DNA of 64,000 nt from an uncultured Phycisphaerae bacterium (lineage in GTDB: Bacteria; Planctomycetota; Phycisphaerae; Sedimentisphaerales; Anaerohalosphaeraceae): the NCBI GenBank assembly GCA_937949545.1, contig CALEDR010000030.1, positions 1-64,000 of the forward strand. The letters run 5' to 3'. The notes below the pieces were generated by a model. The model was not told the DNA's origin. It saw only the letters and a program-made list of their open reading frames with translations, and did not search any database. Below, in pieces: positions 40,105 to 61,066 of this stretch. The translations under genes and the position numbers were made by a program. The first letter of the stretch is position 1. Each line of letters starts with the position of its first letter.

Positions 40105-41664
40105 ATGAACGCCCCGTTAACCGGCATACCCATCGAAGACAGAGCCGGCTGGAGCCGCACCGAACGGCTGTTCGTCAGTACGGCTGCCATGCTCCTTGTC
40201 GGCATTCTTCTGCCCTGGTCTTCTCCGGTGCTGGATATCCTCTGGATTCTTCATCTGTCCCTGACGGCGGCCGTAATTTTGACCTGCATCGGGGCCCGAA
40301 ATACCAGCCAGCTGGACGGTTTTCCCCTGCTGACAGCCGCCGCTTCCATGCTCGGTTTTCTGACGGTCGCCGGCTGCCTGAGAGCCGTTGTTTTTCGCCG
40401 TCAGGCCTGCGGGCGGCTGGTCGGGATGCTCGGAGAAGCCCTCACCTCGTTCGAACCCCTGCTGGCCCTGCTGACCGTCTTTGTCCTCGGTTTTTTTCTG
40501 CTGTATCTGGTTCGGCTGGCAGGGCGGCGGATGCACGCCGCCGTCGAAGACTACTTCTTTCGGGTGCTTCCTTTTAAAAAGGCCGGACTGGAAACAGACT
40601 GCTCTCTGCAGCTGCTTTCGGAGGAACAGGCCCGTCTGCTGGCCGACAAAATCCGGCAAGAAGTGCGATTCTATGCCTCCATGGAGCAAATTCGCAAGCT
40701 GCTGCTGGCTCAAATCGCCGTCCATATCTTCTTGCTCCTGACGGCCTGGCCGCTGGCCTGGACCGCCGAATGGCTTCAATCCGCTTCCAGTCCTCCTGGA
40801 CTGTCGCCCCTTGCTGCCGCAGCCGCCGCCCTGACGGGGACGGCTCTGCTGGCCTGGATTCCTCCGGCTGCCGCGGCCGCCGCCTGCGCCGCCCTGCTGT
40901 CCAAAGACTCACTGGCCCTGCCTCGAGCCGACAACCCGGAACAATCCGCTCAAAGCCGCACCATACGAATCCAGTCCTCTGTTTCAGGCCGAACAGAAGA
41001 AATTGAAATTCTGAATCCGCAGTCCCTGCAGGAACCGCCGAAAAACCCTTCGGTCCCTGAGCAAATTGCCAATTTTGAGCCCTCCGGTTCGCCGGATTCC
41101 TCCGGCCCCCTTCCGGAAATTCGTTTGCTGACGTTTCAGAGCACCTGCCCGGAAGAGTATTATGCCCATCTGGCTGAGCTGTTCAGCCGGCCTGAGTTCC
41201 GGCAGTCTTATCTGCTGCTCACATCCGAATCCGTCAAAGACCTGCCCGTCAACACGGCGGTTCATCCGGCCCTGCATCTGGCACGACGGCAAAAGAAAGT
41301 CCTGCTGCTGGATGCCGACCCCCGAAATGCCGCCGCCAAAGTCTTTGCCCTCCGGCCGGAAACGCTGACCATTCCGACAGCCGTTCCTCGCCTCAATCAT
41401 TTTTGGCTTCAGACAATTCAGCTGGAAGAATGGATGCAGAAAACGGCGGAAGTGCCCGCGGATGATTTTTTCTGCCGGCTGATTTATGCTCCTCAGAAAC
41501 TCCCCCTGCCTTCCCCTCCCCGGCCCTGTGCAGAAACATCAGCCGCTGCAATCCGCATTCTTCTCTTCAGCACTAAAACAGCGGAACAGATACGCCCCCT
41601 GGCCGCCGGATGGCCCTGCCTCTATCTGCTGACTCCTCTTCCCGCCACTCGCAGGCTCGATTAA
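40105..41664 (+). CDS. FlhA-like membrane domain fused to a P-loop-less MinD/BY-kinase-like domain
   Basis: 519 residues. The first 215 follow the order of FlhA: GILLPWSSPVLDILWILHLS (FlhA: LPLP...LD-LL-NI), then QLDGFPLLTAAASML (FlhA: LDF..FPT.LL), then a further membrane helix pair. Next come RVLPFKKAGLETDCSLQLLS, EEQARLLADKIRQEVRFYAS and MEQIRKLLLAQIAVHIF, matching the FlhA stretch from MPGKQMAIDADLNAG through EADFYG.MDGA.KFV to the next helix. The strongly conserved Gly, Arg and Asp residues of FlhA are mostly lost, and its C-terminal export domain is absent. Residues about 340-519 include LLLTSES and KKVLLLDADPRNAAAKVFAL, like MinD or BY-kinase ATPases, but without a Walker A loop. It sits where flhA often lies, after flhB. 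The FlhA relation is my alignment from memory; function is unknown. Confidence 0.65.
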   Translation: MNAPLTGIPIEDRAGWSRTERLFVSTAAMLLVGILLPWSSPVLDILWILHLSLTAAVILTCIGARNTSQLDGFPLLTAAASMLGFLTVAGCLRAVVFRRQACGRLVGMLGEALTSFEPLLALLTVFVLGFFLLYLVRLAGRRMHAAVEDYFFRVLPFKKAGLETDCSLQLLSEEQARLLADKIRQEVRFYASMEQIRKLLLAQIAVHIFLLLTAWPLAWTAEWLQSASSPPGLSPLAAAAAALTGTALLAWIPPAAAAAACAALLSKDSLALPRADNPEQSAQSRTIRIQSSVSGRTEEIEILNPQSLQEPPKNPSVPEQIANFEPSGSPDSSGPLPEIRLLTFQSTCPEEYYAHLAELFSRPEFRQSYLLLTSESVKDLPVNTAVHPALHLARRQKKVLLLDADPRNAAAKVFALRPETLTIPTAVPRLNHFWLQTIQLEEWMQKTAEVPADDFFCRLIYAPQKLPLPSPPRPCAETSAAAIRILLFSTKTAEQIRPLAAGWPCLYLLTPLPATRRLD

Positions 41665-43742
41665 CGGACCATATTCAGACCGGACATCTGCTGCTGAATC
41701 AGCTGCAGCGTCCTCTCCAGCCGTGCATATTGATTCTTCAGACGCGTCTCCACCCGGCTGAGCCGCGATTCCTCCCGGCTGATCTGGCTGTTCGTGCTGT
41801 CAATCCGGCCCTGCACACTTTTCTGAACCAGCGGCACACGCCCGCCGCCGACCTTCAGCAGATTGTCCACGGTATCGTACAGACTGCCCGCAAAGCCCTG
41901 TTTGAGACTCACCATCGCCTCAAAGGTCCCGTCCTGCGACGGATCCACCGTCAGCACCAGGCTGTATTCCGGATATCTCGGATACCCGCCGCTGCTGGTG
42001 GTTTCCGTACTCCCATACAGGGTATTGCCTTCAATCCGCATCGAACGAGCCGCCGTCCAGTCCTCTGTTTTGAGCTTAATCTGGGCAGAGGCAATGACCC
42101 CTCCCTCCACCGTCACCCGCACATCATATTGTCCGCCCTGGGTGTAGCTGCTGGCCTGATAAAATTTGATGGTATTCGAATTGCTCGAGCCTGTCTTTGT
42201 GGCCCCGATGAGAGACAGCACCCCCTGATAATCCTCCACCAGGGCCTTTTCGAGTTTGCTGCTGTCCAGCATCAGAGTCCCGTCGGCCTTGAACTTCAGC
42301 CCGATATCTGCCGACTTGACAAAGGTATCTTTGTCCGTAAAGCCGGCTGCATTAAAGAGAAGCGGCGATCGAAGCAGACTCGTAATCGTTGTCAGACTGT
42401 ATTCCGAAGACAGAATTCCCGTCTTCTTTTCCTTTTCATTATACGTTGTCTTTTCTTTCAGAAAAGAAACTGCCGCGTTATACGCATCCACCATCGCCTG
42501 CAGCTTATCTTTCAGTGTGGTCGTGTCGCGGTTGAGCGTCACTTCCACAGAACGGTAGCCGTCGGTGTCATTGCCGGTAGCACTGTGCAGATTCAGCGTC
42601 ACACCCGCAATCACATCATCAATCGTATTGGTGCTTCGGCGAATCCAAGTGTTTCCATCCGCATCATCTCCCAGCGGATATCCATCCACCTTAATCAGTG
42701 CATCCTGAGCCCGCTGGGTTTCCAGAAACGTGGAGGGAGCCAGCAGCGCCAGATTCGAAACAGTCGAACCGCCGACCGTCGTTTCCGTAAAGGTCGGAGC
42801 CGTCCAGACCGCCGAAGAGCCGTCGCCGGGCACCAGCTGCAGCGAAATCGATAAATCGCTGGCCCCGCTGGTTCGGTCCGTCAGAATCAGCGCCCCCTCT
42901 TCCAGCCGAATGCGGACCGTTCCTCCATAGGCATTTTCTACGGCACTGATGAGCTCTTCCACCGTGGTGTACTGATTGACCTCAAAAAATGATTCCACCG
43001 GCGTTCCGTCCCGCAGGGTCCCCTGAATCCGAATCCGGTCCGGCGTCGAACCCGTCCCGAAGCCCGAGCTGCCCTGCAGCTGGGACAAACGCGTAGTCAG
43101 CGAGGCATTTTTCCCGTTGGTTGTTTTCAACACGGACGATGTATGAACATCTGTATTGCTCGAGTTGATCGAAATCTGATAATTGGACCCGCTTTCCCGA
43201 CCGCTCAAAACCAGATGATACCGGCCGGCAGGCGACTGATAATCCAGGATGCTCGCCGTAATTCCCGGATTATCCGGGTCATTGTTAATCAAATCCACAA
43301 GCTCCTGCAGTGTCGTTGTCGCGGTAGTCTGAACCACAAATTCTTTGCTGTCATACGACAAAATCAGATTCCCTTCGCCGACATACTGCGTTTTGTACTG
43401 AAAGCCGTTATGAACCCAGCGATTGGCCGTAGCCAGCTGGCGAATCTTTACATTGTGCGTTCCCTCAAAGGCACTGCCGGAGGCCGTGGCCGTCAGCATA
43501 TCTTCGTTGCCCGTCTTGGCCTGATAAGTACGCAGCTGACTTGAATCCGACAGCGCACTCAGCGCCGTCCGAAACGACGACAGCTTGCTGTTTAAATCGC
43601 TCACCGCCGTCCGTTTCTCTTCCAGAGTCTTCAAACTCGACTGCAGACTGCTCAGACGGCGTCGCTCAACCTTCATCAGCTGCTCCACAATCGCCGCTGT
43701 ATCAATCCCCGTCGAAAGGCCGGTCAGTTGTATAGAAGACAT
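41661..43742 (-). CDS. fliD: flagellar hook-associated protein 2 (filament cap) FliD
   Basis: 693 residues from ATG 43742, chosen because GGGGA lies 5 nt upstream; a TTG 39 nt earlier extends the frame. The N-terminal domain has IQLTGLSTGIDTAAIVEQLM and a coiled coil (about 25-60). The C-terminal D0/D1 region is helical (SRVETRLKNQYARLERTLQL, QQQMSGL). The middle has beta-rich insertions. FliD caps the filament and guides flagellin folding. It is the last gene of the minus-strand flagellar/glycosylation array. Its stop is interleaved with the stop of the convergent FlhA-like gene. Confidence 0.95.
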   Translation of the reverse strand: MSSIQLTGLSTGIDTAAIVEQLMKVERRRLSSLQSSLKTLEEKRTAVSDLNSKLSSFRTALSALSDSSQLRTYQAKTGNEDMLTATASGSAFEGTHNVKIRQLATANRWVHNGFQYKTQYVGEGNLILSYDSKEFVVQTTATTTLQELVDLINNDPDNPGITASILDYQSPAGRYHLVLSGRESGSNYQISINSSNTDVHTSSVLKTTNGKNASLTTRLSQLQGSSGFGTGSTPDRIRIQGTLRDGTPVESFFEVNQYTTVEELISAVENAYGGTVRIRLEEGALILTDRTSGASDLSISLQLVPGDGSSAVWTAPTFTETTVGGSTVSNLALLAPSTFLETQRAQDALIKVDGYPLGDDADGNTWIRRSTNTIDDVIAGVTLNLHSATGNDTDGYRSVEVTLNRDTTTLKDKLQAMVDAYNAAVSFLKEKTTYNEKEKKTGILSSEYSLTTITSLLRSPLLFNAAGFTDKDTFVKSADIGLKFKADGTLMLDSSKLEKALVEDYQGVLSLIGATKTGSSNSNTIKFYQASSYTQGGQYDVRVTVEGGVIASAQIKLKTEDWTAARSMRIEGNTLYGSTETTSSGGYPRYPEYSLVLTVDPSQDGTFEAMVSLKQGFAGSLYDTVDNLLKVGGGRVPLVQKSVQGRIDSTNSQISREESRLSRVETRLKNQYARLERTLQLIQQQMSGLNMVR

Positions 43743-43833
43743 AGGTTTCCCCGTTCGAACTATCTTGCCGAAATTTGACAACTATCCTATTTTAAATTAT
43801 CGTCATCAGACTCCTTTCTTATAATCTTGTCTC

Positions 43834-46800
43834 TTAAGCTCGGCCACACATCTGAAAAACCGGTTCTTTATCCGGATGGTTCGCTTCCAGCTGCAGGAGG
43901 ATTTGCTGAAGCATTTGCCGGCAGTCCTCGGACAAATTCAGCGTTTTATCGGACAGCAAATCCCGACATATCCGAACCGCTTGCCGGACATTCTTCTCTC
44001 CGATTGCTTCCTGTATAAGATGGAAACCTTCTCGGACCAAAATTTCCGCCCTTTTTTGTCTGTATTTTTCGGCACATTGGGCAAAAATTTCTCCGTTTCT
44101 GTCCGCATAGGTCTCCGCATGTTTCTCAAAAATGGAAACCACATAATCCCAAAAAACCCGCCGGCGATCAAATGCATCGCGCACCGTCGCCACAGACAGA
44201 CACAGCTGCTCTGGAGAATATCGTTCGAGCATTTCCTCCAGACATCGAACCGTAATGGAATGACGCTGCTGAAAGCAGACCGTGTTGGCACCGGACAACT
44301 TTCGATAGAAATAGTCGGCAATCCCCCCGACCATTTGAAACCGTATCTGAGAACCGCAGCGGCACAGAAAGTCAAAATCCTCCACATTGTCCAGCTCTCT
44401 GTACAGTCCGGTCTTTTCGAACAGGGCCCGCCGCTTCAGCGAGCCGGCATTCGGAATCGGCGAATTGCCCCGCGCAAACAGCAGCGCCGGCAGAGCCGCA
44501 GAGCTCTCGATCGGTTCATATTTCCAGAGAATTCCGGTCGGCCTGCCGAATTCATCCACCAATGTCAGTTTTTCAGGGTAATAATAATCATATGCCGGAT
44601 TCTGCACGGCAAAAGCAACCATCCGCTTCAGATAATCCGGTCCGATGAAATCATCCGAATCAATCATCATTACAAAATCGCCGCGGGCCTTTTGAATTGC
44701 CCGATTTGCGGCAGCCGCCGCATTTTTGTGCGGCTGAGAGAAAAATCGTATGCGCCGGTCCTGAAAGGACTGCACCACAGCCGCCGTCCCGTCTGTACTG
44801 CCGTCATCCACAATAAGCAGCTCAAACTGTTCATACGTTTGAGTCAGAACTGATTCGATTGCCCGCCGGATAAACCGCTCTGTGTTGTACGCCGTCATAC
44901 AGATACTCACCAACGGAGTCGAATCCAGCCGGGGACGCACATCAGAAGTTGATGAAGAAGGCGGCGGCACTGAGTTGGGTTCAGATGCCACCGCATATTG
45001 GCCGAGAACACCGTGCTCTTTCAGAACAGAGACGACCTGCCGAATTGGGGCATCTACTGCCATCCACAGTACGATTTCGCTGACTGTCTGAGAACGAACT
45101 GCCGGCGGAATTGCAATCTTCTGAACCAGCAGTTTCCGGTTTTCCCGAAGAAGCCAAACCAAAAACTGAATATGGAAATCCTTCTGAAGAGCTTCCCGAA
45201 GCCGCCAGATAAATACCTCCTTCGGATTCCGTTTCTCTTCGGCGGCCGCCGACTGACTTCGCCGCCAAAGAGCGTTGATTTTAGCCCGTCCCCAGTACAG
45301 CCATCCGGAAGCAGGCTGATGACTCCCAAGACTCAGCGAGTTCGGCAGCTGGCGGATCAGATACAGCGGCTCCGGAACAAACCAGATGCCTGTCACCTCC
45401 TCCATCTTATGATAGATATCTTTGTCCTCTGCGCTTTCCAGTTCGACATCGTGCATCGGGGTCCTGAAATAATCCTTCCGTTTGTAGGTGCGAAATGCGC
45501 TGATAAAACCGCCTGCCTCCAGCGTCGTCTGATCGGGAGGAATCGGCCGGCAGAAACCGAGCCTTATCGGCTTCAGGTCCCGGTCGCAAAGAATGTGCTG
45601 CGCATAAATAAAGCCGCATTCGGGATGCGCCTCGTGGGCCTCGAGCATCCGTTCCAGAGCCCTCGGAAGCAGGGCGTCATCACTGTCCAGTTCTCCGAAT
45701 ACCTCGGCTCGAACAGCCGCTGCACCGGTCAAAATCGCCTGCGAGGCCCCCCGCTGAACCGGATGACGAATCAGCCGGATGCGCGGGTCGGACAAATAAG
45801 ACTCCATAATTTCCACAGAGTTGTCTGTCGAGGCGTCATCGACAATAATCAATTCCCAGTCCGATACCGTCTGAGCCAGAACCGACTCGATGGCCTGACG
45901 AATGTACGGCCCTTTGTTGTAATTGCGCATAATCAGAGAAAAACGGGGTCTGGAGCCGTCTGACGGCTTCCGGAGGCTTTCTTTCACGCCTGAAATGGCA
46001 TTGGGACCCTTGTCCGCTGCCGGGTTCTGAATCCCCCCAGCGGTTTCCTCCGATTCCGGCACAAACGGACGGCGAATGTATCCGCAGGCATTCGCGTACA
46101 GAGCACGAATCTGCTCATCTTCGCCTCTGCCGGCCCCGGAACTGTTTTCAATGCCGTTGGGATTCTGGTAATACAGCCCCAAAACCTCCGGCACAAGCAT
46201 CAGTCTGCGGGTCTGGGAAATCCGCAAGGCAAACTCGTAGTCGCCGGAGGACTTCAGCCGGCCGTCAAAATAGCCGTATTCTTCATGCACATCCCGACGC
46301 CACATCGGCTGCGGACCGCAGTAATATTTCTTCAACAGCAGCTCCCGCGAATACGGCGGGAGCTTCATCACCCGAGAGGGCGTCTTGTTCTGCCAGGTCT
46401 GATTGGGAATTCGGGTGACATAAAAATAGGAATACACATAGCTGACATCCGGATTCTGCTCCAGAACCGAGGCCAGTTTTTCCAGCATGTCCGGCGCATG
46501 GCGGTCATCCGTATTGGCATTGGTTATGTATTTTCCTCCGGCCAGCCGGATTCCCCGATTCCACGCCGCATACACCGTTTCCCGCTCCTCCGTGCGGACA
46601 TACCGAATGTTCGGATAGCGGGCCTGAAATTCCTGAATAATTGCTCGTTCGTTCTGCCTCGAGCCGCTGTCCACAACAATGATTTCCATCTTTCCTTTTT
46701 GGAAAAGCGTCTGTTCAACCAGGTCCTGCAGACATCCGCGGATGAATTCCTCGCTGTTGCAGGCGGAAACAATGGCGGACACCAGACAGTCCCCGCTGCC

Positions 46801-49800
46801 TGCGGCGTACAGAGACTGGCCCAGAACATCCTCAATATCCAGACCCCGGAAATACTCGGGCCCGTATTGCTTCAGCCAATCCCGAACCTGCCGTTCATAC
46901 CAGGGATTGGGGCGCTGATACACCGTCGGGTCAAAATCGGCATAGTGCCGGAGCCACTCCGGATCCGCCGGTTCCAGATGAAGGTCCCGTTCATCCTTGC
47001 TGGGGGCATAGAGTTTGTTGATCTCCGCCGCGGACTTCTGCGGGTTGCGAATCCGCTCCAGGCAGCGATACCACGCCTGCTTCCAAAGCAGATTGTTCCA
47101 GTTGACGAACTGAAAGTGCAGCACTCCGTGCGAATATCCTTTGAAAGTTAATTTCCGTCCTCTCAGATTGGAAGGAACGCGCGGCGTGTGGATAAAATCA
47201 GAGGCATACGAACACCGCCCGTCGTCGCAAAAGACAAAGGGTTTGTAGTTATGGGTCCAGACCGACGCGTCCCGGCGATACTGGTGCAGACTTCGCCACA
47301 GAGCAATCCAGTTCATCCACAAATGGTCTCCGGGCTGCATCGCCAGAATCATTTTCCGCAAAAAATTGTCCGTCAGACAATTGGAAGTGAACGCCTCATC
47401 CGCATCCAGAATAATAAAATGAGTCCCCCCGATTTCCCGGCCCGCCTGAAGCACCCGGTTTCGATCGCCCGGTTCGTCCCGGTACCAGCGATCTTTGGTC
47501 AGAATCCGTTCCACCCGGCAGGTTTCCGCCAGACCCCGGACAACCTCCAGCGTCCGGTCTTCCGAACAGTCATCCAGAAACACAATTGCATCCGTAAAGT
47601 TTGACAGCAGACGAAGGCATTGCCCGATGATCGGTTCCTCATTCCGCGCCGTCACCAGCCCCACAATTTTGGGCCTTCGTTCCGACAGCTTTTCTGCTTC
47701 CGGGGCCGGCCGGATGCTCAAATATGGTTTCATTCGGAGTACATCCGCTTTGTCTTTCGATTCCGCTCGGTTCATCTTCATTCGGAATAATCCTTGCAGC
47801 GAAACAAACTTCAGCCCTTCATAATAAAAATGATTCTCCGGATTAAAAACGGTATCCTCGAGCGGCTCTTGGTAATAAACGGCCTCTTTGTTATGGCTGT
47901 CGAGCCGACAGGAAGCTTTTGTCGGCAGGGCCTCATATCCCACATGCAGGTAATCGATGTCCTGCGACGGCCGGATCCCATAAACCGCCATCACTGAACT
48001 TCCGTCAATGCAGAAACACTCCGGGTCAACACCGCTCTCCTCCAGAAGCGCTCGATACTCCTGCAGATGATGATAAAACGGTTCAAAATAGACCAATTCA
48101 GCATGATTGAGAAAATGGATGCTGTTCTCGTTAAAACACACCCCAGCCAGCTGAAGGGTTTCTTCGTACGAGTCATTAATATGAACCGCATTCTGATTCA
48201 AACCGAACAGAGATCGAATCTCCTGTTTGCAGCTTCGAACCGCCTCCGGAGAATCCGCTTCAATCAGATACACCCGAAGCGGCCCCCTCCCGCAAAAACA
48301 GTTGACGGCCTTGTCCTTACATCCCCGAAAACCGTCGGACGGACTGCCGAGCCAGGGCTCACCCAAATAGGCCTGTTTGATATAGAAAAACGGTCCGTTC
48401 TTCCTCAGAACCAGTTCTTTTCGATACACAAGCCGAGCATAACGGCACAGAATGGAAACAATCTCTTCCTCCCCACCCTCGGCACACGGAAATACGGATA
48501 CAATATATGTATTTTTCTTGATTTTGCAGTATTCATAGGCCATCGCATCCGCATATTTGGGCTCCAGACCTCGTTGCAGAAACCATGAAAAATCATACCG
48601 GCGAGCCGAACGGTCAAAGACCGCTGTGTCCACATTCTGCCCGGTCACATAAGCCGCCGCCACTCGATGGCCGCCGTCTATAATCACTCCATCCTGACCG
48701 ACCGGAAGAAGCGAGCGGTTCGGGTCGAACCCATGTGCCGCGAAAGACTCCAGCAGAGAATTATACCGCTTCAAAAAAATGTCAGGACCTGTCTTGCCGG
48801 ACCCATCTTCTTCAAAAAAGTTATTGAAAGCCCTCAAGTGAGCCAAATAAATCCGCCGACCCCAGTCGCTGTTCAGCCGCCTGCGGAAAAAGCGTCCATA
48901 GATAATTTTGGCCATCAGGTCAAAACGATGGGCATGAATCAGTGCGGACGGGCAAATCCGCTGTTTTTTTGCAAGCCCTTCTTCCGGCAGATACCCGATT
49001 CGGAAGAGAGCCGGATTGAGCAGAGGACGAATCTCTTCAATCCGGTGAAAAGACTCTTCCAACGGCCTTGCCTGCCGAATTCTCTGGTTCAGCCACAAAG
49101 CGTTGCCGCTGCCGTTTCCGAATTGATGATTGAGCCCGATTCCGGCCAGCACAAAACCTCGCCCCGCCAGAAATCCCTCCAGATCAATCAGCCGGGCCTG
49201 TCCCTCATACAGCGTTGCGTAGGTCCACACTTCCAGAAACACAGCACAGCAGTTGGCCAGAACCCGCCTGGCCCCCTGCAGCACCGACAACTCCGCCCCC
49301 TGTACATCGCACCACAGCAGGTCCACCGTCTTGTTTTTCAGCGGCTCAAACTCATCCAGTCGAATGCACTCTACGGTAAACGTTTCCTGAGACCGAATGC
49401 CGAACTGTTCGGCTGTTTTCTGTCCGAAGTCTCCGCGGGGATCGGACCGAAGCGGCAGAAGAGACCCCGTCCCCGGCAGGTTGTTTTCATAAAAAACCAT
49501 CGTCCCCTTCCGGTTGGAAACCGCAAAAAGGTAACAGTGAACCCGCTCCTGGCAGCGGTATCGCTGTTCGAGCAGGGCAAACATCTTCGGATTCGGCTCA
49601 AAGGCAAAGATTTCCGCATGGGGATACCGCTGGAGAAGCCGCTCGATTTCCTGTCCCAGGCAGGCCCCCACAATGACAATCCGCAAAGGCGTGTCCGACG
49701 GCTTGCCGACCAGAGAACACAAATTCTCTTCGACATCCTCCTGAATTTCCTGATACGGCTCCTTCCGCTGCCCTGAGTAGTTTTTCGCAGCCACACCGCC

Positions 49801-50991
49801 CCGAATCGGCTGGATGTCGGCCAAAAACAAATCCTGCCGGTTGTCCCATATCAGACTGTATCCCTGCGACGATACATACCGAAGAATCTCCTGCCGCCGT
49901 GAGCCGTATTCCGCTACAATCAGCTGTGGCCTGTACTTCGCAAAATCCAGTCCCCGCAGCACTTCCCAGTCATGTCCCTCTGTATCAATCGAAAGCAGCG
50001 CCACATCTTCGAGCCCCTGTTCCTCCAGAATCTCCGTGAGGGTCCTGGCTTCCACCGTCTCCTTTTTCCAGCGCGCCCCGTAGGTCTTTGTCCAGCGGTC
50101 CCTCTCCGCGCCGTCCAGCGAAGCCACATCACTGCCCCAGTCCGGCAGATGCGGATACTCCGACACATGCAGATCAACCGGCCCGCTCCGGTCGGATACA
50201 GCCGCCCGAATACATCGCACATCCCAGCCCAGCCAGGCCCGCCGCAGTTTCCGGAAATTCATCTCCGCCGGCTCAATGCACAGCCCCGTCCAGCCGTACC
50301 GCTCCGCCAGCCGACGGACATTGCTGTAATGAATCCCGTCAAAGGCGCCCACATCGACGAACACTTTACAGCGGGCTTTTCGCTCCGCAAAATACTGTTC
50401 AATCACCGCATCCTGTCCGTTCTGAGCATAATAACCGCGCAGATGCTTGGGCAGTTCCCGTGCATACCAGAATTCCGGATTCAGCGCCAGCACTGTCCTG
50501 CAGGCTGCTTCGACCGCCTCCGTCCGGCCCAGCTTCGCCGCCGCCAGCGCCATCAGCCAAAAATATCTCCCGTTCCTTGGGGATTCAGCGGCCAAATTAG
50601 AAGCCGTGCTCAGGAGATGCTCAAACAGACAGGACGGATAGGCCCGCAGGCATGGGTCCTGAAGAATACGAACGGCCTCCTCTGTGCGGTTCCGAAGGTA
50701 GTCCGACAAATCTCCTGTATGGGCCTGCACCGAGGACACCCAGGCATGGAAAAAGGCAATCTGCGCATCGGACGGCTCCAGCCGAAACGCCGTCTCCAGA
50801 GCCGTCCGGGCCTCCTTCAGCTCCTTTTTAAGCAGAAACGCCCGCCCAAGCGAATAAAAGGCAAAAGCATCCGCCGGCTCCGTCTTCAGCCGGGCTGCAC
50901 AGTCCCGGCAGACAGGCTCCGCCTCGCCCCGAGCAAGGTGCCGTTCAATCTTTTCTATCCAGTCTGTTGGAATAGACAGCGCAGTTTTCAT
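43834..50991 (-). CDS. giant multi-enzyme glycan-modifying protein: TPR, 2x FkbM methyltransferase, ParB-like, nucleotidyltransferase-like, 4x GT2
   Basis: 2385 residues in one frame. TPR-like helices cover about 1-180. FkbM methyltransferase 1 covers about 209-362 (VFVDVGAFDG, SIDTEGHDWEVL) and FkbM 2 about 435-615 (IVIVGACLGQEI, DVQGAELSVLQGA). A region of unclear fold has a ParB-like motif near 770 (GQDGVIIDGGHRVAAAYV). A nucleotidyltransferase-like motif lies near 1004 (GSSVMAVYGIRPSQDIDYL). Four GT-A (GT2) domains begin near 1112 (VGLVTARNEE, LDADEA), 1407 (VSAIVSACNSEEF), 1685 (SLIMRNYNKG, DSDD) and 2030 (VSICMTAYNTERF, DSDD). A helical tail closes it. There is no signal peptide. It lies between a FliT-like gene and fliD in a flagellar array, so flagellin or a cap/hook protein is the likely acceptor. 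The acceptor is inferred, not shown. Confidence 0.85.
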   Translation of the reverse strand: MKTALSIPTDWIEKIERHLARGEAEPVCRDCAARLKTEPADAFAFYSLGRAFLLKKELKEARTALETAFRLEPSDAQIAFFHAWVSSVQAHTGDLSDYLRNRTEEAVRILQDPCLRAYPSCLFEHLLSTASNLAAESPRNGRYFWLMALAAAKLGRTEAVEAACRTVLALNPEFWYARELPKHLRGYYAQNGQDAVIEQYFAERKARCKVFVDVGAFDGIHYSNVRRLAERYGWTGLCIEPAEMNFRKLRRAWLGWDVRCIRAAVSDRSGPVDLHVSEYPHLPDWGSDVASLDGAERDRWTKTYGARWKKETVEARTLTEILEEQGLEDVALLSIDTEGHDWEVLRGLDFAKYRPQLIVAEYGSRRQEILRYVSSQGYSLIWDNRQDLFLADIQPIRGGVAAKNYSGQRKEPYQEIQEDVEENLCSLVGKPSDTPLRIVIVGACLGQEIERLLQRYPHAEIFAFEPNPKMFALLEQRYRCQERVHCYLFAVSNRKGTMVFYENNLPGTGSLLPLRSDPRGDFGQKTAEQFGIRSQETFTVECIRLDEFEPLKNKTVDLLWCDVQGAELSVLQGARRVLANCCAVFLEVWTYATLYEGQARLIDLEGFLAGRGFVLAGIGLNHQFGNGSGNALWLNQRIRQARPLEESFHRIEEIRPLLNPALFRIGYLPEEGLAKKQRICPSALIHAHRFDLMAKIIYGRFFRRRLNSDWGRRIYLAHLRAFNNFFEEDGSGKTGPDIFLKRYNSLLESFAAHGFDPNRSLLPVGQDGVIIDGGHRVAAAYVTGQNVDTAVFDRSARRYDFSWFLQRGLEPKYADAMAYEYCKIKKNTYIVSVFPCAEGGEEEIVSILCRYARLVYRKELVLRKNGPFFYIKQAYLGEPWLGSPSDGFRGCKDKAVNCFCGRGPLRVYLIEADSPEAVRSCKQEIRSLFGLNQNAVHINDSYEETLQLAGVCFNENSIHFLNHAELVYFEPFYHHLQEYRALLEESGVDPECFCIDGSSVMAVYGIRPSQDIDYLHVGYEALPTKASCRLDSHNKEAVYYQEPLEDTVFNPENHFYYEGLKFVSLQGLFRMKMNRAESKDKADVLRMKPYLSIRPAPEAEKLSERRPKIVGLVTARNEEPIIGQCLRLLSNFTDAIVFLDDCSEDRTLEVVRGLAETCRVERILTKDRWYRDEPGDRNRVLQAGREIGGTHFIILDADEAFTSNCLTDNFLRKMILAMQPGDHLWMNWIALWRSLHQYRRDASVWTHNYKPFVFCDDGRCSYASDFIHTPRVPSNLRGRKLTFKGYSHGVLHFQFVNWNNLLWKQAWYRCLERIRNPQKSAAEINKLYAPSKDERDLHLEPADPEWLRHYADFDPTVYQRPNPWYERQVRDWLKQYGPEYFRGLDIEDVLGQSLYAAGSGDCLVSAIVSACNSEEFIRGCLQDLVEQTLFQKGKMEIIVVDSGSRQNERAIIQEFQARYPNIRYVRTEERETVYAAWNRGIRLAGGKYITNANTDDRHAPDMLEKLASVLEQNPDVSYVYSYFYVTRIPNQTWQNKTPSRVMKLPPYSRELLLKKYYCGPQPMWRRDVHEEYGYFDGRLKSSGDYEFALRISQTRRLMLVPEVLGLYYQNPNGIENSSGAGRGEDEQIRALYANACGYIRRPFVPESEETAGGIQNPAADKGPNAISGVKESLRKPSDGSRPRFSLIMRNYNKGPYIRQAIESVLAQTVSDWELIIVDDASTDNSVEIMESYLSDPRIRLIRHPVQRGASQAILTGAAAVRAEVFGELDSDDALLPRALERMLEAHEAHPECGFIYAQHILCDRDLKPIRLGFCRPIPPDQTTLEAGGFISAFRTYKRKDYFRTPMHDVELESAEDKDIYHKMEEVTGIWFVPEPLYLIRQLPNSLSLGSHQPASGWLYWGRAKINALWRRSQSAAAEEKRNPKEVFIWRLREALQKDFHIQFLVWLLRENRKLLVQKIAIPPAVRSQTVSEIVLWMAVDAPIRQVVSVLKEHGVLGQYAVASEPNSVPPPSSSTSDVRPRLDSTPLVSICMTAYNTERFIRRAIESVLTQTYEQFELLIVDDGSTDGTAAVVQSFQDRRIRFFSQPHKNAAAAANRAIQKARGDFVMMIDSDDFIGPDYLKRMVAFAVQNPAYDYYYPEKLTLVDEFGRPTGILWKYEPIESSAALPALLFARGNSPIPNAGSLKRRALFEKTGLYRELDNVEDFDFLCRCGSQIRFQMVGGIADYFYRKLSGANTVCFQQRHSITVRCLEEMLERYSPEQLCLSVATVRDAFDRRRVFWDYVVSIFEKHAETYADRNGEIFAQCAEKYRQKRAEILVREGFHLIQEAIGEKNVRQAVRICRDLLSDKTLNLSEDCRQMLQQILLQLEANHPDKEPVFQMCGRA

Positions 50992-51037: not shown

Positions 51038-51382
51038 TTATTTCCCATAAGCCGACAGCGTCCGAATCCCCTCCCGAATCTGCCGCAGTTTGTCCGCCAC
51101 CTCCTGCCGTTCGGCGGCAATCACTAGACAGATGTCCTGATACAGTCCCTGGATTTTCTGCCTGCAGGCCGCATATTCAGGCCGCTCCAGAATCCCTTCC
51201 CCGGCAAGCCGTTCGGCAAACCGATGCGACTCCTCCGCCAGCCGAACCGCCCCGTCCAGGTCATACCGGCGCAGCTTCTCCAGCTGCCGTTCCAGCAGCT
51301 CGGTCAAATACGCCAGCTTCCGTCGGTCTTCTGTCGTCCCTTCGGCCGCCTGAATTCCCGTACAATCCGCCGCTTTGCTCAT
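51038..51382 (-). CDS. small helical protein, FliT/FlgN-like export chaperone candidate
   Basis: 114 residues, predicted nearly all helical (LTELLERQLEKLRRYDLDGA, RQEVADKLRQIREGIRTLSA, ending YGK). Length, acidic/basic heptads and the ending resemble FliT or FlgN chaperones, which hold FliD, FlgK or FlgL before export. It starts inside the TPR gene stop (ATGA) and is 46 nt before the giant enzyme; fliD comes next after that. A FlgN-type gene is already present at 61096-61605, so this one would more likely serve FliD or flagellin. Recognition is by form and context only. Confidence 0.55.
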   Translation of the reverse strand: MSKAADCTGIQAAEGTTEDRRKLAYLTELLERQLEKLRRYDLDGAVRLAEESHRFAERLAGEGILERPEYAACRQKIQGLYQDICLVIAAERQEVADKLRQIREGIRTLSAYGK

Positions 51383-53661: not shown

Positions 53662-54561
53662 TCACAAAACAGATTCTTCAGCGGGCTTCTCCTTCGTCCA
53701 GGAAATCTTGAGCCGTTCCGCCGCCTCCAGCACCTCCTGCGGCTGAGCCGGACAAACAGACACCATTCCGCTGCCCTCCTTCATCGGCCAGCAGTCCCAG
53801 GAATTCTTTCCCAGATACACCATCGGCAGGTGAATTGCCGCCGCCAGCGCCGCAATCTCCTCATCCTCGCTGATCAGCAGCTCACACTGCCGCAGAACCG
53901 TTGCAATCTCACGGGCCGTCAGCTTGCCGCGAAGGTCCTTGGCCTCCGGAGCCGCCGGACCGCTTCCTCCGCCCACATACACAAGACTGGCCCCCCATTT
54001 TTCTTTCAGAAGACGCCCCACTTCGGCCCCCTGAGACGACAGCCAGCTCGGACAGTCCGCCGATATCGGCGCCAGCACAATACGCGGACGAGCCAGTTTC
54101 GACAGGCCGAACCGCTGGGATCGGACAAAATCGAAACTGTTTAAAAGAATCTGAGGCGTCTGCTGCTCCAGACGCACGCCCAGCTGTCCCGCCGCATCAA
54201 ACATCCAGTCCATACCGGCTCCTTTCCGCGGTGCACCCCGCAGGTATATCACCTTGTCAAACGATTCCTTCAGCTCTCCGGCATCGCCGTAGGCCAGACC
54301 GCGTACCCCGGGATGCCCGATGTATAAATCCGCATATTCATGGCAGATGGTAATTTCCTGCTCCGAGGCGAACGTCTGGCCGAACAGCCGAATCGCCGGC
54401 TCGGCCAACAGGGCCGCCAGCAGCCCCGCCGGCGGCACAATCAGCACCCTGCGAAGGGCTCGCTCGGAACCCGCCGGTCCGTCTAACCTGCTCGGCGGTT
54501 CCGCCGACAAAGCAGACGTTTCCGCTAAAAAGGGGCCGCAGAAGGACTCCTTCCCGAACAC
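53662..54561 (-). CDS. GT9/heptosyltransferase-like protein
   Basis: 299 residues of a GT-B form. The N-terminal Rossmann start is RRVLIVPPAGLLAALLAEPA. The C-terminal half carries SWLSSQGAEVGRLLKEKWGA, YVGGGSGP and a late CELLISEDEEIAALAAAIHLP, as in GT9 proteins (ADP-heptose:LPS heptosyltransferases). The frame opens with GTG 54561 and overlaps the previous gene by 37 bp. The first 35 residues look unlike the family, so the true start may be further in. The presence of a GmhB-type phosphatase at 23741-25261 makes heptose a possible donor, but this is a guess. Confidence 0.65.
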   Translation of the reverse strand: MFGKESFCGPFLAETSALSAEPPSRLDGPAGSERALRRVLIVPPAGLLAALLAEPAIRLFGQTFASEQEITICHEYADLYIGHPGVRGLAYGDAGELKESFDKVIYLRGAPRKGAGMDWMFDAAGQLGVRLEQQTPQILLNSFDFVRSQRFGLSKLARPRIVLAPISADCPSWLSSQGAEVGRLLKEKWGASLVYVGGGSGPAAPEAKDLRGKLTAREIATVLRQCELLISEDEEIAALAAAIHLPMVYLGKNSWDCWPMKEGSGMVSVCPAQPQEVLEAAERLKISWTKEKPAEESVL

Positions 54562-57824: not shown

Positions 57825-59012
57825 CTATTTCAGAAAATCCAACAATGAGGTCGAGAAAATCTTTGAAGCCGCTGTCAGCGACATCTCATACAGCAGCTGA
57901 TGACGCGCCAAATCAATGGACAGCTGGGTAATATCCGCATCCAGCAGGCGGCTGATTTCATCTTCGGAATTGACTTTCATATTCTCCATACTGTCTTTGA
58001 GGTTTGTGAGCGTTTCAATCCGCCCCCCGATAATCGGAAACGAGCGCACCAGCTTCTCTTCCACCTCCTGCATCGAAACCAGTATCGCCCCCAGCAGATT
58101 CTCCAGCGTCTTGTCGTCCAGGTTCTGCGAATTGTTCAGCAAATCGCGGGCGGAAATCAGAATATTGAAAATGTCATAGGTACCGGGGATACGAACCGGC
58201 TCTGTTCCTGTCTGTCGAATTTCACTGACATCCACATACAGAACCTCTCCGGTCTCAGAATGAATGACTGCTGCATTGGTCTCCGTTCCGGCGACCGTCA
58301 CCCAGGAAGCCCCTCCGTCAATGGACAGCCGCCAGCTGCCCGGCCCCCCCTCCACCGTCAGATACAAATCCCCGCGGACACTCGACGTGCCGCTGCCCGC
58401 CTTCACGCCCGTGGACCCGTAAAAAACGGGTGTCTGCCGGCTGTCATCCCGAAACAGACGATCCCCCACCAGCAGGGCCGAAATCTCCATCCCGTCAATC
58501 ACCTCCACCTTCTGCTCCTCCTGGCTGCCCTGATACGTTACCCGGACAATCCGGCCGTTTCCGTCCCGTTCGACAGTATACGGCGCCTGTTCGGCTTTCG
58601 CCCCTCCGAACAGGTACTGACTGAGCCGGGTGGAGTTAGCGAACGAAATGACCTGTTCGAGCGCATTGTTGATTTCGGCCGCCAGTGTGCGCCGAACCTG
58701 GGAATTTGTTGTCCCTGACATCGTAGACGCCAGCGAGGCACGGGCGTTGGCCATCTCCTTCATTATGCTCTGTACCACAGACGAACTCAGGTCCAGAATG
58801 CTGACAGCCTCCCCCATGGTTTTGACATAAACTTCTTTCTTCCGCTTGTCAGTCTGAAAACCGAGAATCTGGTTGGTCCGGCTCGGGTCATCCGATATCC
58901 GATTCAAATCCTGACCCGTGGCCGCCTTCTGCTGAAGAATATTCAGCTTCTCCGAATGCCGGGTGACAGCCCAATAGGTTGTTTTGAATATCGATTCGAG
59001 GGAATAACTCAT
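57825..59012 (-). CDS. flgL: flagellar hook-associated protein 3 FlgL
   Basis: 395 residues. The flagellin-like N-terminus reads YWAVTRHSEKLNILQQKAAT, then GQDLNRISDDPSRTNQILGF. The C-terminal helix reads RLLDADITQLSIDLARHQLL, then YEMSLTAASKIFSTSLLDFL. The variable middle (about 140-270) is beta-rich. FlgL joins the hook-filament junction to the filament. GAGGAG precedes ATG 59012, and the gene follows flgK by 26 nt. Confidence 0.95.
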   Translation of the reverse strand: MSYSLESIFKTTYWAVTRHSEKLNILQQKAATGQDLNRISDDPSRTNQILGFQTDKRKKEVYVKTMGEAVSILDLSSSVVQSIMKEMANARASLASTMSGTTNSQVRRTLAAEINNALEQVISFANSTRLSQYLFGGAKAEQAPYTVERDGNGRIVRVTYQGSQEEQKVEVIDGMEISALLVGDRLFRDDSRQTPVFYGSTGVKAGSGTSSVRGDLYLTVEGGPGSWRLSIDGGASWVTVAGTETNAAVIHSETGEVLYVDVSEIRQTGTEPVRIPGTYDIFNILISARDLLNNSQNLDDKTLENLLGAILVSMQEVEEKLVRSFPIIGGRIETLTNLKDSMENMKVNSEDEISRLLDADITQLSIDLARHQLLYEMSLTAASKIFSTSLLDFLK

Positions 59013-59038: not shown

Positions 59039-61066
59039 TCAGGTCAGCAGGCCCATAATCGTATCAATCGACGAATTGACGCTGTTCATATATTTCGCCA
59101 TCGCCTGAAACAGCCGCTCAAACATAATCATCAGACTCGCCTGTTCATTGACATCCACGCTGCTGACAATATCCCGCTGTTCCTCCAGGCTGCGGACGAT
59201 CTCCTGCGTATTGTTCGACTGCATCTGGAGAATCGAAATCTTCTGTCCGATATCCACGGCAATCTGGCGGTAATATTCCTTGGTGGTCAGCCCGTTCAGC
59301 GGCGCCAGGGCCCGGTCGCCCAGCTGCGCCATCGCGGCGCAGTTGCGGTTGTCAGCCCCCTCCGCTCCGATCGCAACGGCGATTCGCGAGACATTCCGCC
59401 GAATGTCATCCGATACATCAATCGAAGCGGCATCCCGCCCGCTGAAAAAGCAGTTGATGCCCGTCGCCGCCAGGAATCCTGAGGTATCCGAGGTTGCCAG
59501 GGCCTCGATCGCTATTACTTCCCCGTCATTCAGATAGCCCGGACTGATGCCGTTGGTCCCCAGCGTGATGGAAATGCCGTGCTCCAGCAAAATCGCTGTT
59601 CCCGGCACATACTCCTGTCCCAGCTGAACGGTGGCCACAACGGTGCCCGAACCGTCCCGGACTTCCAGCGACATCGTTCCGTTTCCGACTGCCAGCGTCT
59701 GTCCGGGCGGATTCGTCCGAACGGTGCAGGTATAAACCTGATTAACCGAAGCGGTATATTGACCGGAAATGGTGATTGTCGGCGGCTTCTGGTCCTCCCC
59801 TGAACCGGCTCCAGCCAGCACCGGCGGCACCGTAAATGTCGGCGAGCTCAGCACACCCGGTAGAAAGTCAAACCGGTAGCCCGTATTGGCCACAATCTGC
59901 AGCCGTCCGGCATAAACTCCCGTCGCTCCATCCAGTCCCGGAATCGAGGCCAAATCCGCCGCCACGCTTTCCAGCGTGCTGGTTTCATCAATGCCGATCG
60001 CATACCGCCGGGCCGTCCCATCCGGGTCAATCACCCGAACATACAGCGTCCCGGCCGACACCGGCGGCTGAAAATCCGCCACACGGCTTTCCGTCATCGT
60101 CCAGCCCGTCAGACTCGTAAAGGAACCCCCGGAACCGATTCCCTGAACATGCAGCCGGTTTATCTGAGAAATCAGCGTCACGGCCAGCATATCCAGTTTG
60201 TCCATAAATTCCGCCAGGGTCTCATTCCGCAGGTCCAAAATCGCTCCCAGCACGCCGTTCTGAAAACGGGTCTCGTAATTCTCCGTTCCAACCGCTGCAA
60301 TTCCCAGACGGCTTTTCCCCCCTTCCTCCACTACCCCCAGACGAATGGTGCTGATATTCGATCCGATGACAATCGGAATATCCGCCACGGACACATCCAC
60401 CACCCCGTACTCCCGACGATGCGTCCGAATATCGATGTAGCTGCCCAGCTGTCCAATCAGCACATCCCGCTGATCCATCAGATTGCCGCCTTCCTGCCCC
60501 TGGACCCCCAGCGTAAAAATTTCCTGATTCATCTGGGCAATCTGCGAAGCCAGCTGATTAATTTCGGACACAACCTCCTGCGCTTCCGTATAAAGGGCAT
60601 CCTGAAGATTGTCCACAATGGACGCCAGATTGCGGAACTGGCTGGTCAGCGTCTCCGCCGACGCCAGAACCGACGTCTGATAGTTCACGTCCTGCGGACG
60701 CAGAGACAGACTGTGCAGAGAGGCGTAAAAATTGTCCAGACTCTCACTGATGCTGCTCAGCGACAGCTCCCCCATCGCACTTTCCACAATCCGCAGAGCA
60801 TCCAGCTTGCGGGACATCGAAGACAGCGCGGAATTGTACTGAAGAATCTGCGACTCCAGAAACACATCAATCTGCCGCTGAATCCCGACGAAATCCACCC
60901 CCTGACCGGTCATCATCCCGTTCATATACGCATCCCGCGCCGGACGCAAATCCACCCGCTGGCGGTGATAGCCCGGTGTAGCGGCATTGGCCAGATTGTT
61001 GCCGATGACATTCAGCGCCTTCTGGGCCGCGCTGATTCCGCTCATTCCGATATTATATCCGGCCAT
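59039..61066 (-). CDS. flgK: flagellar hook-associated protein 1 FlgK
   Basis: 675 residues. The rod/hook N-terminal motif is at about 8-35 (GMSGISAAQKALNVIGNNLA, NAATPGYHRQRVD). The FlgK helical region follows (SQFRNLASIVDNLQDALYTE, INQLASQIAQMNQEIF), then a large beta-rich insertion (about 330-510). The C-terminal motif reads SVDVNEQASLMIMFERLFQA. FlgK is longer than in enteric bacteria because of the middle insertion. It lies between flgN and flgL. Confidence 0.96.
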   Translation of the reverse strand: MAGYNIGMSGISAAQKALNVIGNNLANAATPGYHRQRVDLRPARDAYMNGMMTGQGVDFVGIQRQIDVFLESQILQYNSALSSMSRKLDALRIVESAMGELSLSSISESLDNFYASLHSLSLRPQDVNYQTSVLASAETLTSQFRNLASIVDNLQDALYTEAQEVVSEINQLASQIAQMNQEIFTLGVQGQEGGNLMDQRDVLIGQLGSYIDIRTHRREYGVVDVSVADIPIVIGSNISTIRLGVVEEGGKSRLGIAAVGTENYETRFQNGVLGAILDLRNETLAEFMDKLDMLAVTLISQINRLHVQGIGSGGSFTSLTGWTMTESRVADFQPPVSAGTLYVRVIDPDGTARRYAIGIDETSTLESVAADLASIPGLDGATGVYAGRLQIVANTGYRFDFLPGVLSSPTFTVPPVLAGAGSGEDQKPPTITISGQYTASVNQVYTCTVRTNPPGQTLAVGNGTMSLEVRDGSGTVVATVQLGQEYVPGTAILLEHGISITLGTNGISPGYLNDGEVIAIEALATSDTSGFLAATGINCFFSGRDAASIDVSDDIRRNVSRIAVAIGAEGADNRNCAAMAQLGDRALAPLNGLTTKEYYRQIAVDIGQKISILQMQSNNTQEIVRSLEEQRDIVSSVDVNEQASLMIMFERLFQAMAKYMNSVNSSIDTIMGLLT

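Follow-up and report, generated by a model that had tools for sequence, protein, structure and literature searches.

A run of flagellar genes in an uncultured Phycisphaerae bacterium holds, beside fliD, one very large open reading frame. Our reading of the partial 16S suggests Planctomycetota, probably Phycisphaerae, and a family expected to be rich in planctomycetes gave marginal hits only. As a rule, the building of a flagellar glycan is shared among several separate enzymes. The locus raises the question of whether this frame is one real gene and, if so, what a single protein of this size does among flagellar genes. The original prediction, made from the window (the whole stretch of 64,000 nucleotides that was analysed), was a single-chain glycan synthase/methylase linked to flagella. 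Our analyses lead to a related reading: we consider it fairly probable that the protein, hereafter the giant, works in the cytoplasm as a single-chain assembly line for a glycan and belongs to a flagellar glycosylation island. The coordinates are collected in Table 1.

Table 1 Features of the giant gene and its neighbours, with positions in the window and the evidence for each
Feature	Position	Strand	Evidence or remark
fliD, filament cap	41661..43781	minus	FliD_C, FliD_N
Giant modular glycosyltransferase/methyltransferase gene	43834..50991	minus	2385 aa; colinear G029 orthologue
N-terminal helical region, residues 1-200, with TPR-like repeat 42-75	50392..50991	minus	TPR_1 match
FkbM methyltransferase domain 1	49855..50355	minus	PF05050 65 bits; VDVGAFDG, IEP, IDTEGHDWEVL
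FkbM methyltransferase domain 2	49150..49671	minus	PF05050 67 bits; FEP, DVQGAELSVL
Central block (CEN), residues 650-1110, three domains	47662..49044	minus	no Pfam family; relatives found
CEN part 1, possibly ParB-like, IDGxHR motif	48550..48987	minus	helix/strand order in model; motif
CEN part 2, NDK-like, His937	48121..48522	minus	VIA-align Z 12.3, rmsd 2.6, 116-129 aa
CEN part 3, nucleotidyltransferase-like, DxD 1011-1013	47707..48096	minus	VIA-align TM1012: Z 10.6, rmsd 2.8, 116 aa
GT2 domain a	47371..47655	minus	LDDCSED, LDADE
GT2 domain b	46276..46779	minus	VDSGS, NANTDD, SGDYEF
GT2 domain c	45475..45939	minus	VDDAS, LDSDD, AEDKDI
GT2 domain d	44590..44907	minus	VDDGS, IDSDD, VEDFDF
114-aa protein, perhaps FliT-like export chaperone, adjoins giant	51038..51382	minus	FliT E 0.019, below cut-off
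TPR protein, 209 aa	51379..52008	minus	87-98% identity in three siblings
GT2 with C-terminal TPR-like region, 551 aa	51999..53654	minus	
299-aa conserved protein, perhaps degenerate GT9	53662..54561	minus	GT9 E 0.12; sibling 0.014; both below cut-off
TPR + group 1 glycosyltransferase, 565 aa	54525..56222	minus	
TPR + group 1 glycosyltransferase, 482 aa	56362..57810	minus	
flgL-type	57825..59012	minus	Flagellin_N
flgK	59039..61066	minus	

In the ORF listing the giant is a single frame read from an ATG, in which no internal stops have been found, and the plus-strand reading of the same interval was rejected because of its many stops. Of 22 GT2 matches across the genome, no other belongs to a frame of such a size. 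The original prediction had itself named an assembly join of separate genes as a possible source of the frame; chance read-through would have the same effect, and related modules do occur as separate shorter proteins in sibling species, e.g., one of 623 aa in G028. However, the sister species G029, from a separate assembly, has a colinear frame of 2381 aa, with 86.9% identity end to end and 4 gaps only in the alignment. Since G029 has the whole protein as well, the uninterrupted frame is a real gene, the join is rejected at the sequence level, and an artefact of either kind is extremely improbable. Between the two orthologues dN/dS is 0.19 overall and 0.10–0.27 per domain, which indicates that all the modules are under purifying selection.

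Two FkbM stretches (E 1.3e-36) and four GT2 stretches (E 3.5e-106) are recognised by Pfam in the giant, as had been predicted. Both FkbM domains are above the PF05050 cut-off of 22.7 bits and contain the SAM-site motifs, and each of the four GT2 domains has its nucleotide motif and keeps its own DxD-type motif intact, the latter in the giant and the G029 protein alike. GT2d matches chondroitin synthase (2z86/2z87) and heparosan synthase (8vh7) in sequence. The predicted TPRs fared less well: one TPR-like repeat was found (TPR_1, residues 42–75, E 2.4e-6), whose 27.6 bits lie just under the curated cut-off of 27.8, and the plural is weakly supported for the giant. Residues about 142–200 are conserved in an Omnitrophota protein described below.

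The block between the second FkbM domain and GT2a, here CEN, had been called undefined. This is right insofar as no Pfam model was matched by giant residues about 650–1110 or by the 12 family members, and a PDB sequence search with CEN gave chance matches only. On the other hand, CEN (461 aa in the giant, about 410–460 aa in the family) belongs to a distinct and wide-spread multi-domain family. Its members, some stand-alone and others fused, come from Bacillaceae-type, delta-proteobacterial, Omnitrophota, Chlamydiae and Pacearchaeota records, and one other genus of the same phylum also has the family.

AlphaFold modelling, which had been proposed as a check, was run on CEN with an alignment of 12 sequences and gave a mean pLDDT of 91. 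In the model, the three parts look ParB-like (not proven), NDK-like and nucleotidyltransferase-like, respectively. For part 1, the hhalign probability against the ParB N-terminal profile is 0.2%, which is not significant, with GxHR in register, and the structural matches to phage ParB-like proteins are weak. Part 2 is colinear with the NDK profile over 115 columns at a marginal P of 0.042, and His937 is aligned to the NDK catalytic His; PF00334 (NDK) was matched by none of the 12 members, and the NDK IKPD lysine motif is missing, the aligned position of the window protein being VFP. Part 3, folded alone before the structural comparison, matches MenT1 (Z 9.3), ANT(2'') (8.0) and FKRP with CMP (only 5.0) in addition to TM1012, and contains the [GST]S...DxD motif as in the nucleotidyltransferase superfamily.

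The His937 equivalent is found in 10 of the 12 CEN members and so is the DxD, and the same two members lack both. These two Bacillaceae proteins, from Aquibacillus (L019:9902-11386) and Salipaludibacillus (L020:1183-2601), have also lost the KD..D signature, which suggests that they may be inactive or changed paralogues; the joint loss of His and DxD is suggestive only, the members being from related taxa. Such losses would fit a flagellar glycan synthase in which some modules only are active, CEN or some of the GT2 and FkbM domains being structural or dead remnants of shuffling. The missing lysine motif, the acidic residue of the second FkbM motif, which is Ala in G029, and the gain and loss of modules between siblings point the same way. 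Considering the DxD-type motifs kept in both species and the purifying selection on each domain, we regard this reading as quite unlikely.

The position of the giant directly upstream of fliD is as predicted, with a gap of 52 bp, and flgK and flgL lie on its other side. Read along the minus strand, the run goes flgK, flgL, TPR-GT4, TPR-GT4, the 299-aa protein, GT2-TPR, the TPR protein, the 114-aa protein, the giant and fliD. True GT9 domains sit in sibling giants, while the match of the 299-aa protein to GT9 is sub-threshold. Both true flagellin genes are elsewhere, on contig C3 and outside the flgK–fliD run, which counts against the flagellar reading; the two flagellins (271–272 aa) have 15–18% Ser+Thr in the middle region, which makes them candidate acceptors.

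Comparative genomics of the gene upstream of fliD, also proposed with the original prediction, was run on six members of the genus, and glycosyltransferase/methyltransferase giants (one or two of roughly 1,800–2,600 aa, plus smaller proteins) precede fliD in every one, in five different sets. The slot holds proteins of 2620, 312 and 623 aa in G028, 1827 and 942 aa in G030, 1894 and 1262 aa in G026, and at least 1809 plus 898 aa in G027, and the modules of the sibling giants are GT2, GT9, NKWYS and several methyltransferase families. GT2d, on the fliD side, is present in all siblings at 44–88% identity, GT2b shows 61–94% identity in the siblings possessing it, and the N-terminal half (TPR-FkbM-FkbM-CEN-GT2a) is within the genus confined to the genome of the window (G000) and G029. 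In the stretches compared, the order flgK-flgL-TPR/GT-(giant)-fliD is common to G000, G029, G028 and G030, and in the latter three the accessory genes, flgL through the 114-aa gene, show 65–98% identity. The fliD slot is modular, with GT2, GT9, NKWYS and methyltransferase modules shuffled around conserved fliD-side GT2s. As the giants of close relatives in this slot are assembled differently, the giant resembles an exchangeable assembly line for flagellar decoration.

Related proteins are also found outside the genus. An Omnitrophota MAG encodes a 1023-aa TPR-FkbM-CEN-GT2 protein, with 55% (FkbM1) and 42% (CEN) identity to the giant, which suggests that the N-terminal half may have been acquired as a ready-made set. 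The lower G+C of the CEN region (0.48–0.53, versus 0.51–0.59 for most of the chain) is in line with a separate origin of CEN, a sign that is weak taken alone. A 2077-aa CEN-bearing giant in a delta-proteobacterial MAG adjoins an FlgL-like flagellin gene, flgK and flgI, and another MAG has a 2583-aa relative of it with TPRs, GT10, CEN and GT2 domains. A CDP-glycerol glycerophosphotransferase-like gene (L017:5963-7237) immediately precedes the gene for the TPR-FkbM-CEN-GT2 protein, which hints at phosphodiester chemistry.

Most CEN relatives outside the genus are in polysaccharide or viral clusters. The stand-alone relatives occur in polysaccharide clusters together with flippases, GDP-mannose dehydratase and GT4 genes. 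On IMG/VR contigs, several copies of CEN adjoin a GT2 gene, and the one in L074 is fused with GT2. In addition, the matches of the CEN model to viral predicted structures span most of the model (E 5e-16 to 9e-14); the CEN-like proteins are those of Catovirus (A0A1V0SAX2) and Yasminevirus (A0A5K0UAL1), both named glycosyltransferase, and of Mimivirus LCMiAC01 (A0A481Z0W0), which are viral, uncharacterised and 14–19% identical to CEN. Since CEN is adjacent to or fused with glycosyltransferases across these records, it is a repeated glycosyltransferase partner, in bacteria and an archaeal MAG as well as in large viral contigs and giant viruses. Two further observations concern the CEN clusters. 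In L072-L077 (IMG/VR, contigs up to 185 kb), CEN is inside long gene runs containing GT2 genes; in the CEN cluster of G078, a MobA-like nucleotidyltransferase is fused to a class V aminotransferase (L027:6719-8527), which recalls aminoethylphosphonate cytidylyltransferase/transaminase fusions.

The polysaccharide clusters would agree with a different reading, namely that the product of the giant is a polysaccharide of the cell surface (LPS-like, capsule or holdfast), its place next to fliD being a transcriptional or insertional accident. Another point on this side is a locus in G126, a member of another family of the same phylum (L124:4569-11514), where a DegT aminotransferase, a methyltransferase and a 1678-aa NKWYS/TPR/GT2 giant resemble the flagellar set of G026 and have a DDE transposase, rho and polA as neighbours. 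Because this giant sits outside a flagellar locus, the giants are not strictly tied to flagella. The G126 trio is possibly a mobile giant-glycosyltransferase cassette. We nevertheless consider the surface-polysaccharide reading unlikely: giants fill the slot in all six genus members and are flanked by conserved TPR-GTs in the flagellar run, a CEN giant lies beside flgK and an FlgL-like gene in another phylum too, and in the genome of the window dTDP-rhamnose-type genes (judged from ORFs), glycosyltransferases and one FkbM form a cluster of their own. Overall, a single-chain glycan synthase/methylase linked to flagella is still the best reading, while its link to flagella does not extend to all giants.

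The sequences establish the frame, its domains and intact motifs, the purifying selection, the flagellar slot and the replacement of modules in siblings. For this assembly line we infer the acceptor, the order of action, the sugars, the methylation positions and all of the CEN chemistry, and the scheme would be as follows. The acceptor would be a flagellin or a hook-associated protein, given that the giant shares its gene run with flgL, fliD and flgK. Before export, this flagellar subunit may be held by the TPR-like N-terminal region of the giant and by the TPR proteins encoded nearby; the TPR-GT proteins would probably prime the glycan, GT2a-d of the giant would then extend it, and the two FkbM domains would O-methylate its sugars. 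As the original prediction has it, the giant could perhaps complete an entire O-methylated oligosaccharide on a single acceptor without letting it go. CEN, beside GT2a, may add or activate a phosphate- or nucleotide-linked substituent via its nucleotidyltransferase-like and NDK-like domains, and we propose this chemistry only tentatively. A wider statement, that CEN is a new NDK-like/nucleotidyltransferase-like/ParB-like family which, together with GT2s, furnishes glycans with a phospho- or nucleotidyl-linked group and is a swappable flagellar-glycan module in the genus, is possible and is likewise put forward with caution.

One chain of up to eight modules, exchanged as a whole between sister species, would allow the sugar coat of the flagella to be altered by swapping modules, and the giant would offer a natural assembly line that is tractable. 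CEN is a concrete unstudied family with clear catalytic candidates (His937 and DxD 1011-1013). A biochemical answer on CEN would apply widely because it recurs beside glycosyltransferases in bacteria, viral contigs and giant viruses.

Several known systems can be compared with the giant. The module swapping of polyketide synthases may be likened to that of the proposed interchangeable glycan assembly lines. Bifunctional GT2 synthases (chondroitin, heparosan) have more than one glycosyltransferase domain per chain and make repeating polymers; unlike the giant, they have no methyltransferase, TPR or CEN block. FlmG of Caulobacter (596 aa) has one C-terminal GT-B domain, and its TPRs are the flagellin-binding part (PMC7591256). 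The likeness lies in the idea of a cytoplasmic flagellar glycosyltransferase with acceptor-binding TPRs, and here the neighbours of the giant are TPR-GT proteins; the giant itself, however, has four GT2 domains and a weak TPR region. As Pfam found neither a GT-B family match nor a Maf family in the whole protein, identity with FlmG and with a Maf transferase was rejected. VioT, of the VioT/Fgt1/Fgt2 set of Pseudomonas syringae, is also a large flagellin-glycan transferase (1,173 aa), and its glycan is methylated (PMC3927599); it is half the size of the giant, and a separate gene, vioM, is responsible for the methylation. For the type A flagellin glycan of C. difficile (CD0240-CD0244), nucleotidyltransferase and phosphotransferase steps have been proposed, plus methylation (PMC10714395), which sets a precedent for such steps on a flagellin sugar. 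That pathway consists of separate small proteins, among them the pyrophosphorylase-type CD0242, and a kinase/cytidylyltransferase link between it and CEN is one of analogy only.

The original prediction held that no known protein has this full set in a flagellar operon. We have found no description of a comparable protein in open-licence papers, but the uniqueness is limited by the multi-module giants in siblings and elsewhere, by VioT, and by glycosyltransferase-methyltransferase fusions in flagellin glycosylation islands (PMC4875605). Such islands, in Enterobacteriaceae and Geobacillus, have variable sets of GT2 and methyltransferase genes, including FkbM, have probably spread by transfer, and contain some GT41 or GT2 proteins fused to methyltransferase domains; the enterobacterial ones have one to three glycosyltransferases each and are at the fliC locus (PMC4875605, PMC5109656). 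Here, by comparison, one chain carries four GT2 domains, two FkbM domains and CEN and lies between flgL and fliD. The glycosyltransferase genes are inside the flagellar run, and their content varies between close relatives. By position and variability, the locus belongs with the flagellin glycosylation islands, and what is new is the eight-module single chain and CEN.
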